This document shows positions 12,704-14,584 of a stretch of DNA of 64,000 bases, piece by piece; the first letter of the stretch is position 1; every line of letters starts with the position of its first letter. This DNA comes from Collinsella sp. AM34-10. Its GTDB lineage: Bacteria; Actinomycetota; Coriobacteriia; Coriobacteriales; Coriobacteriaceae. Below the pieces are notes generated by a model, which was not told where the DNA came from, searched no databases, and saw only the letters and a program-made list of their open reading frames with translations. The stretch spans positions 130,339 through 194,338 of the forward strand of contig NZ_QSIL01000005.1 in the NCBI RefSeq assembly GCF_003469185.1, given 5' to 3'. A program made the position numbers and the translations under genes.

Positions 12704-12927
12704 CGAACAAAGCATACCCCAACAACAGCGGGAAGACGGTAACAGTACAAGTAAGTAAACGACTCATCCAAATAATTAGGAGAGTTTCGCCTAAAGGGTG
12801 ACTACACAGGACCCCGCCGGGGCTGTTTGGGCTACCTCCCAAAACATTCCGCACTGATATTTTCTGTATTGAAGACGTCGATGATGCGCCCGTATACCAT
12901 TGACGTCGACACCATCAGACGCGGTCC

Positions 12928-13103
12928 GCGCGGTGACCCCACATTCCGCTGGCGCCCACAGGGCTGCCCTCGTTTCCTGACATGTCCCGCGCGGGCCGCG
13001 GCGAGCCGAGACCGCCGCATGACCTAATAGGAGCATGGAGCGATACCGCGGACCCGAACAACCGCATTCTATCGCGCCCCGTCAGTGTGCCGTCTGCCCG
13101 GTC
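12928..13103 (+). ncRNA. Predicted IS110 bridge RNA in the left end
   Basis: The left end contains two guide-loop modules. Target module: stem GCGCGG/CCGCGC (12928-12933 / 12987-12992) encloses ACATTCCGC (12941-12949), identical to the left target flank 12844-12852; then the small hairpin AGGG-CTG-CCCT (12960-12970); then TCCTG (12975-12979), the reverse complement of the right target CAGGA (14469-14473). Donor module: AATAGGAGCAT (13026-13036) matches the right end of the element at 14458-14468 in 10 of 11 bases; then hairpin GCGATA/TATCGC (13040-13045 / 13070-13075); then TCAGTG (13082-13087), the reverse complement of CACTGA at the left junction. This order is the known IS621 layout. Ends are approximate; expression is inferred. 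Confidence 0.7.
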
Positions 13104-13133
13104 CAGGCGAGCACGGAAAGAACGGAGCGAGAC

Positions 13134-14462
13134 ATGAGAACCGAATCGACACCCGGCGCCCGCGGGCCGGTCTTCTGCGGGGTCGACACCCACGCCGACT
13201 CGCACTGGCTGTGCGTCCTCGACTGGAGGGGCCGCAAGGTCCTGTCCCGCCAGTTCCCCGCCGACGCGGCGGGATACGAGGCGCTCGCCGGGGCGATCGC
13301 GGCGGCCGGGGAGCCGGCCTGCGTCGCGATGGAGGGGACGTCGTCCTACGGGGCGGGCCTCACCAGGCACCTCGCGTCGCTGGGGATGCCCGTGCGCGAG
13401 GCGCTCTCCCCGGCGAGGATGCAGAGGAGGCGCCCGGGGCAGGGAAAGTGCGACGAGTCGGACGCGGAGAGGGCGGCCCGCGCGGCGATGTCCGGCTCAA
13501 AGCTCGGGACCCCCAAGAGCCAGGACGGGTGGGTCGACGGGGTGCGCTGCATGCTCGCGGCGCACCCCGGGAGCGGCCCCCCCCGGGGCGGTGAAGGCGC
13601 GGACCTCGGCGATCAACACCGCGAGGTCGCTGCTCACCACCGCCCCGGAGGGGCTCAGGTCGAGGTTCCGCGGCATGGGAGGGCCGAGGCTGATGGAGGA
13701 GCTCCCCTCCGTGCGCGCCGAGGGCGCGCTGGGCGCCGCGCTCGGCGCGCTGGCGGACCTGTGGGCGGCGGCGCGCGACGCGGCGCTCGACATGGAGCGC
13801 GCGATCGAGGCGTCCCTGGAGGAGAACTGCCCCGCGCTGCTGGCGATGTACGGGTGCGGGCCCGTGAGCGCGGCCAAGCTCGCGGTCGCGGCCGGGGACA
13901 ACCCGGGCAGGCTGCGCTCCGAGGCGTCGTTCGCGGCGATATGCGGGGCCTGCCCCATCCCCGCCTCGAGCGGCAAGACCGTGAGGCACAGGCTCAACAG
14001 GGGCGGCGACCGGCAGGGGGACAGCGCGCAGACCGGCAGGCGAACAGCGCGCTGCACGAGATCGCGAGGCAGAGGGTCATGCGCGACCCCGAGACCGCCG
14101 AGTACGCCGAGAGGGCCAGGGGGCGGGGAAAGAGCGACAGGGAGGTCATGAGGTGCCTCAAGCGCTACGTGGCCAGGGAGGCGTACCGGGCGCTGATGCA
14201 CCCGCACGAGATCAGGAGGCCCGAGGACGCCTCGGAGCTCGTGGCGGCCAGGCGCGCGGCGAAGGTCAGCCAGGCGAGGGCGGCGTCCATATTGGGAACC
14301 AGCGAGAAGTACATCTCGATGCTGGAGAGGGGACAAAGGGAGCTCAAGCCCATAAGGAGGGCCTACGAGGCATGGGTCGAGGCCGGACTTCCGCTCGATT
14401 GGGACAGGCAGGCCTTCGAGGCCGAGCGCAAAAAGGATTCTAAAAAACACCTTGCCAAATAG
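13134..14462 (+). pseudogene. IS110-family recombinase, frame-disrupted, with C-terminal HTH
   Basis: DEDD/serine recombinase of the IS110 group. The N-terminal RuvC-like domain keeps FCGVDTHADSHW, VAMEGTSSYG and CDESDAERAARA (D, E, D, D). The C-terminal domain keeps GCGPVSAAKL and PASSGKTVRHRLNRGGDRQ with the catalytic serine region. Reading needs a frame change near 13570 at an eight-C run, and another near 14022-14044, where a 23-nt segment ending in a second ACCGGCAG breaks GGDRQANSALHE. The two changes restore the original frame. The last 80 residues (AAKVSQARAASILGTSEKYI, then SMLERGQRELKPIRRAYEAW) look like an XRE/Cro-type HTH, unusual for this family. Start ATG 13134 has GGAGCG upstream. 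Sequencing error at the C-run cannot be excluded. Confidence 0.8.
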
Positions 14463-14584
14463 GAGCGTCAGGACGCAAGAAGCCCTCGCCGCACGAAGTG
14501 CGCAGCGAGGGCTTCTTGCATGTCCGAGGACGTTTTGGGAGGTAACCCAAACAGCCCCGGCGATCCTGCGGGAGTTAAATCCTT

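Follow-up and report, generated by a model that had tools for sequence, protein, structure and literature searches.

A candidate bridge RNA gene of an IS110-group insertion sequence in Collinsella, with guides that vary together with insertion flanks among its relatives

In the Escherichia coli element IS621 (PMC11208160, PMC11208158), the left end (LE) carries an RNA composed of a 5' stem-loop followed by target and donor loops, the core lies within the right guides, a promoter is formed at the junction of the right end (RE) and LE (PMC11208160), the two letters that follow each right guide, the handshake guides, pair with the other DNA once strands have been exchanged (PMC11208158) and a repeated extragenic palindrome serves as target. 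REP palindromes are known targets of insertion sequences as well as of IS621 (PMC1525189; PMC11208160), with site-specific insertion into extragenic palindromes described for ISPpu9 and ISPpu10 (PMC1525189). A target-matching RNA upstream of the gene, as in the element described below, is also noted for the IS110 element ISEc21, for which a much shorter seekRNA (58 nt) suffices, and natural redirection is described for ISEc11 and ISXne4 in the same report (PMC11187229).

The DNA analysed here (the window, 64,000 nucleotides in all) is Collinsella aerofaciens-like, its nearest genome among those compared being G001 with 25% of sampled 31-letter words, and contains an element of this kind (Table 1), which resembles IS621 in each of the respects listed above, including guide order, and in the fold of its recombinase (Foldseek E 5e-9 to 5e-8, TM by target length 0.59-0.65). 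Differences from IS621 were noted in the core, which is CT there as opposed to CA or CG in the Collinsella element, in the targets, in the recombinase, which is 18-20% identical in the fold alignment and in the Collinsella element adds a C-terminal Xre-like helix-turn-helix (HTH), and in the left donor guide, the match of which falls short of the core, donor position 6 being mismatched. The non-coding stretch in LE is almost certainly a gene for the bridge RNA of this IS110-group element, with the circle promoter, two-loop pairing, exchange at CA and handshakes proposed below. This identification, already made in a first-pass annotation of the DNA, is supported by anatomy, conservation and guide-flank covariation, as well as by a promoter-like sequence, an empty site and the predicted fold of a relative's protein. 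The kind of RNA-guided element is known while its Collinsella member is new, and is unusual in its clean natural retargeting with handshake covariation, its HTH extension and its target palindrome. Among the available papers listed for IS110 in Collinsella, for IS110 transposases with helix-turn-helix and for repetitive extragenic palindromes in Collinsella, nothing on the element or the palindrome was found in listings or passages.

Table 1. Positions of the element, its predicted RNA features and its target in the window
Feature	Position	Strand	Remark
IS110-group insertion sequence, class A	12854..14468	+	lies between two CA core copies
Left core CA	12852..12853	+	
Right core CA	14469..14470	+	
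Left target plus core AACATTCCGCA	12843..12853	+	
-10-like box TATTTT, LE	12858..12863	+	
-35-like box TTGCCA, RE	14452..14457	+	usable only with RE and LE joined in a circle
Bridge RNA 5' stem-loop	12874..12907	+	single-sequence fold
Target-binding loop hairpin	12920..13000	+	-48.3 kcal/mol, z -3.69; comparative support, helices 1-3
Left target guide (LTG) ACATTCCGC	12941..12949	+	equals left target 12844-12852
Right target guide (RTG) TCCTG	12975..12979	+	reverse complement of CAGGA at 14469; core paired by final two letters
Target-loop handshake guide AC	12980..12981	+	complementary to donor GT 14467-14468
Donor-binding loop	13015..13097	+	comparative support, helices 4-6
Left donor guide (LDG) AATAGGAGC	13026..13034	+	equals 14458-14466, RE
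Right donor guide (RDG) TCAGTG	13082..13087	+	reverse complement of CACTGA at 12852, LE
Donor-loop handshake guide TG	13088..13089	+	pairs G-C and U.G with target CG 12850-12851
Recombinase piece 1, DEDD_Tnp_IS110	13134..13580	+	PF01548 E 5e-19; frame lost about 13565
Recombinase piece 2, Transposase_20	13591..14040	+	PF02371 E 1e-11; frame lost about 14008
Recombinase piece 3, C-terminal HTH_3	14043..14462	+	PF01381 24.4 bits, cut-off 23
Target palindrome, left arm and loop	12817..12850	+	fold of joined flanks, -121.5 kcal/mol
Target palindrome remainder: inner hairpin, second loop strand, right arm	14471..14561	+	

The ends of the element were fixed by means of relatives at other loci and of an empty site (L095), which is an uninterrupted version of the window's locus. 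The joined flanks of the window align with it across the junction without gaps (97%), and thus the insertion was scarless. The target sequence of the window's class, class A, is AACATTCCGCAGGACG. A core dinucleotide common to donor and target was found together with scarless insertion except in L003 (G041), which lies at the same locus as the window and has one CA more at its left junction (CCGCACACTGA) where the window has a single CA. In several other classes CA stands at the left, CG at the right, and the target core is CG. CACA was seen again in L078 (G188), an element that begins directly after the apparent right end of another; a two-letter duplication or a re-insertion may lie behind these cases. 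The genes beside the element, all on the minus strand, are, as judged from their translations, a lacI-type regulator (12687-11656) on one side and a short glycyl-radical-type gene (14884-14585) on the other, the latter followed by a formate acetyltransferase-like gene (16973-14922).

All four guide segments were present exactly at the positions claimed in the first-pass annotation, and the two right-side guides, TCCTG and TCAGTG, ended as claimed in TG, complementary to the CA core. The donor guides matched the element's own RE and LE. In 20,000 dinucleotide shuffles of 12874-13133, scored for matches as long as those observed, matches of equal length were obtained in 0.4% of shuffles for the nine letters of LTG, in 0.4% for the nine letters of LDG, in 11% for RDG (weakly unlikely) and in 84% for the five letters of RTG (chance level), and in none of the 20,000 for all four guides jointly. 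The right-hand guides are therefore not significant from the window alone, and the evidence for them is that of the relatives. Between the donor guide ATAGGAGCxT and the right end of the same element, a mismatch at x (donor position 6) was noted in the window (14467) and at the RE of classes B-E and I, that is, in classes for which both donor guide and RE were read, as if pairing at this position were avoided.

Upstream of the gene, LE encodes the conserved RNA, which has two loop-bearing hairpins. Hairpins flanked by the guides had been claimed at 12960-12970 and 13040-13075; the predicted limits are 12951-12968 for the inner hairpin of the target loop and 13037-13078 for the hairpin of the donor loop. 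The start given earlier for the RNA, 12928, is probably too far downstream, since the stem of the target loop begins at 12920 and the 5' stem-loop lies further upstream still. Folded alone, the donor loop did not surpass shuffled sequences in stability (z +0.71); its support is comparative. In an alignment of relatives, which was fitted to the same structure and is to that extent biased in its favour, 93.5% of 947 cells were paired compared with 76.0% after shuffling, and 17 of 26 pairs had changed on both sides; conservation of the two hairpin-flanked loops, on which the earlier reading had been made to depend, was thus found. No match to Rfam was obtained at gathering score in the whole window.

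When RE and LE of the window are joined, they resemble a sigma-70 promoter by sequence (TTGCCA-17-TATTTT, with TG before the -10), as good a match being found in 0.5% of 2,000 mononucleotide shuffles. Seven of eight other elements tried have a TTGAC-type -35, 17-18 nt spacing and GATAAT, so that such a sequence was present in eight of nine elements, the window among them; class K had no promoter-like sequence across its RE-LE junction at 16-18 nt spacing. No promoter was detected by scanning the integrated element, which agrees with a promoter that forms only on circularisation. Transcription of the Collinsella element, binding of its RNA and strand exchange are proposed by analogy with IS621. 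Thus, in the circularised element, RE would supply the -35 and LE the -10 of a sigma-70 promoter from which the left end would be transcribed, and the RNA would fold into 5' stem-loop, target loop and donor loop. The recombinase with the target loop would pair both strands of ACATTCCG-CA-GGA and, with the donor loop, both strands of AATAGGAGCGT-CA-CTGA; strands would be exchanged at CA, and the two handshake letters of each loop would then pair with the other DNA.

Class-A copies with a legible left flank numbered nine, with identical guides in all nine, and lay at six loci, as distinguished by comparing upstream flanks; three loci were common to two strains each (window and L003, L167 and L004, L168 and L006). 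Insertion of intact copies at sites unlike 12941-12949, named earlier as an observation that would count against the annotation, was looked for in these flanks, and LTG matched its own flank at nine of nine positions in five copies, at eight in three and at six in L168. Compared with L006, which occupies the same locus, the L168 site has one base more. After the core, GGACGCAA was read in each of the four copies whose right flank is legible (window, L003, L004 and L006).

The usual target of class A is a long palindrome, in which the site forms one strand of the internal loop, and insertion there parallels the targeting of REP palindromes by other insertion sequences and by IS621. The arms of the palindrome are site-specific yet complementary while the internal loop is fixed (TCCGCAGG / CCGAGGAC). 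The pattern TCCGCAGG-N(36-66)-CCGAGGAC was found in 30 of 43 genomes of the genus, up to 11 times per genome, compared with a single match for the backwards control; a small number of the places listed resemble chance matches in coding sequence. Among 23 folded palindrome loci, the outer stem was unbroken over 17-38 pairs, G.T included, in 18 and over 2-6 pairs in the remaining five. Compared with the REPs entered by ISPpu9 and ISPpu10, the Collinsella palindrome differs in its long site-specific arms round a fixed loop. A comparison of six palindrome loci with Rfam, in which matches up to E 1 were accepted, gave at the palindromes themselves nothing but sub-cut-off matches to microRNA-precursor models, a likeness of hairpins; the palindromes therefore have no Rfam family. 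An FMN riboswitch, unrelated, was recorded above cut-off beside one palindrome site. A count of short-loop palindromes over the order (66 of 395 genomes) was discarded, many of the listed matches having no hairpin.

Since all four class-A copies with a legible right flank, of the nine, lie in the internal loop of such a palindrome, its shape (hairpin or cruciform) rather than its sequence might be the target and the guide match secondary. This explanation is unlikely. One class-A copy, L165, is inserted at CAATCCGC in an open reading frame, which we take to be flavodoxin-like, with a guide match of eight of nine; palindromes of the same family with another loop edge (e.g., TTTTCCGC) hold none of the nine copies; and the flanks of other classes are unrelated. 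Thus, from the position of L165 in a coding-like frame, sequence rather than shape seems decisive. The CA core and palindromic natural target of the earlier annotation were borne out, except that the core is CG in several classes and that L165 lies outside a palindrome.

Relatives were collected over 395 genomes of the order. A donor-loop pattern gave matches in 23 of these but was rejected as a census, since it takes in matches without RNA context (e.g., L074, L076), and an RNA model was used instead. A covariance model was built from 15 sequences and found the bridge RNA in 30 of the 395 genomes, also recovering classes absent from its building set (I, J, B2 and C2); class K (G120), which it missed, was read by hand. 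A plasmid search gave a single record, from Collinsella, of 899,693 bases. Guides and flanks were read from an alignment of 47 matches (52 sources). Of the 46 full matches, 43 had a left flank that could be read, one of these entered by hand. The guides were at first sorted into twelve classes, the hand-read class K included; among them are ACATTCCGC (window), GACCTGC, TACACCAAC, ATTGGGGAC, AAGCGAAAGC, TTTTCCGTC and GTTGTCATC. Targets are alike within B, B2 and J and within C and C2, which leaves about nine unrelated targets. For a merged test, classes of like target were joined and class K was left out, giving eight clearly different target classes.

The covariation that the earlier annotation had proposed as a test was found between guides and insertion flanks. 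Thus, LTG matched its own left target at 7.55 of 9 positions on average compared with 4.15 for guides of other classes over the 12 classes (0 of 20,000 class permutations), and at 7.45 compared with 3.94 over the merged 8 classes (0 of 20,000). Corresponding values for RTG and the right target were 5.33 of 7 and 2.76 over 7 classes (3 of 20,000 permutations) and 5.24 and 2.55 over the merged 6 classes (25 of 20,000). Exceptions to the match of target guides with both flanks were the left guides of class D (4-6 of 9), L168, and the right guides of L144 (4 of 7) and L145 (3 of 7). Where the right end of a class was legible, the letters of RTG that pair with the core mostly tracked the target core, again with the exception of L144 and L145, RTG ending in TG where the core is CA (classes A, I and C, the last from L008 and L147) and in CG where the core is CG (classes B, B2, D and E). 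On the donor side, RDG matched LE at 4-6 of 6 positions in 42 of 43 rows and at 3 in L056, although, since a CACTGA-like pattern was used to locate LE in most relatives, this agreement is partly by construction; a compensatory change was seen in L150 and L151, in which LE reads CACCGA and RDG TCGGTG.

The handshake guides likewise followed the other DNA. In all seven classes with a legible right end, the target-loop handshake was the complement of the donor dinucleotide that precedes the core, the pairs being GT/AC in four classes and TT/AA, AT/AT and CT/AG. It paired with its own donor at 2.0 of 2 letters compared with 1.40 after swapping (7 classes; 103 of 20,000 permutations), or 1.33 in the merged 6 classes, where the own value was again 2.0 (169 of 20,000). 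The donor-loop handshake tracked the target (TG/CA, AA/TT, GA/TC and GT/AC, with G.U in the window's class A), values for own and swapped targets being 1.82 of 2 and 0.96 over 11 classes (0 of 20,000 permutations), 1.75 and 0.88 over the merged 8 classes (12 of 20,000) and, with only Watson-Crick pairs counted in the merged set, 1.5 and 0.49 (23 of 20,000). Exceptions were L009, L077 and L176, each with one of two letters paired.

These results bear on the supposition that the guide-flank matches are due to chance or to leftover target sequence and that the recombinase protein recognises the target itself. RTG and RDG are not significant in the window, the guides of the nine class-A copies are identical, and class A alone cannot separate this supposition from recognition by RNA. 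Over the classes, in contrast, guides and flanks change together, and the donor-loop handshake tracks the target within an otherwise almost invariant donor loop, a pattern not predicted by direct recognition; recognition by the protein alone is thus very improbable. With recognition by bridge RNA, about nine natural guide-target classes with almost one donor loop display the pairing rules of bridge RNAs at work in nature, handshake guides that follow the other DNA included, and provide, from a gut commensal, ready matched sets of RNA, donor and target with a CA or CG core for testing rules of retargeting. The palindrome family hit by the element merits a description of its own. Identity of recombinases between classes was mostly 40-60% (30-63% with fragments included), and so no recent retargeting was caught.

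The recombinase combines a DEDD RuvC-like domain with a Transposase_20 domain, in one frame in relatives and in pieces in the window. Compared with L003, an intact relative with 98% identity over the letters aligned, the window's gene has 16 extra letters near 13565 and 23 near 14008, by which its frame is broken; the window copy is therefore dead or movable only by enzyme made elsewhere. An AlphaFold model of the L003 recombinase (429 aa, 11 sequences) had a mean pLDDT of 81.6, and its best matches among solved structures by Foldseek were ISCro4 (9t56) and IS621 (8wt6/8wt9), with E 4e-9 to 5e-8 and TM by target length of 0.59-0.66. ISCro4 is also the sole PDB relative by sequence (E 3e-5) and the top fold match (E 4e-9), but its chain of 341 residues is without the HTH extension. 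That the element is instead a seekRNA-type IS1111 relative, with which it shares the DEDD recombinase superfamily, has next to no probability, since its RNA lies upstream of the gene with LTG before RTG, which is the IS110 order (PMC11187229; PMC11208160), and not downstream with the guide order reversed.

The Pfam cut-off for a C-terminal HTH_3 was exceeded by the window piece, L007 and L008, and HTH matches under the cut-off were seen in L003, P0001, L010, P0107 and L009. By eye, a C-terminal HTH was seen in representatives of classes A, B, B2, C, D, E and I, while the class K protein stops before it and the frames of C2, J and H are incomplete. One may guess that the HTH controls the RE-LE promoter. 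A broader and rather doubtful suggestion is that an IS110 clade in the order fused a C-terminal Xre-like HTH, kept nearly one donor loop and re-aimed its target loop and two donor-loop handshake letters to some nine unrelated targets, that the HTH could bind the RE-LE promoter overlapping the donor guides, and that the prey of class A is a genus-wide palindrome without Rfam match, with perfectly pairing site-specific arms. If so, an HTH at the RE-LE promoter would make RNA supply and donor choice one regulated step.

Several further elements were noted among the relatives. L006 (G008) is an internally deleted element of 791 bases that has kept both ends and the whole bridge RNA, and P0107 is an internally deleted recombinase of 255 residues listed on 1000 contigs; both were possibly moved by intact copies. 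The left flanks of two class D elements (L066 and L067) lie inside apparent transposase genes of IS3 type, as judged by a motif, so that one insertion sequence appears aimed at another. In L007 (G039), a 44-base direct repeat upstream of the RNA duplicates the left end, so that two CACTGATAATTGTTCT starts follow one another at a distance of 44 bases.
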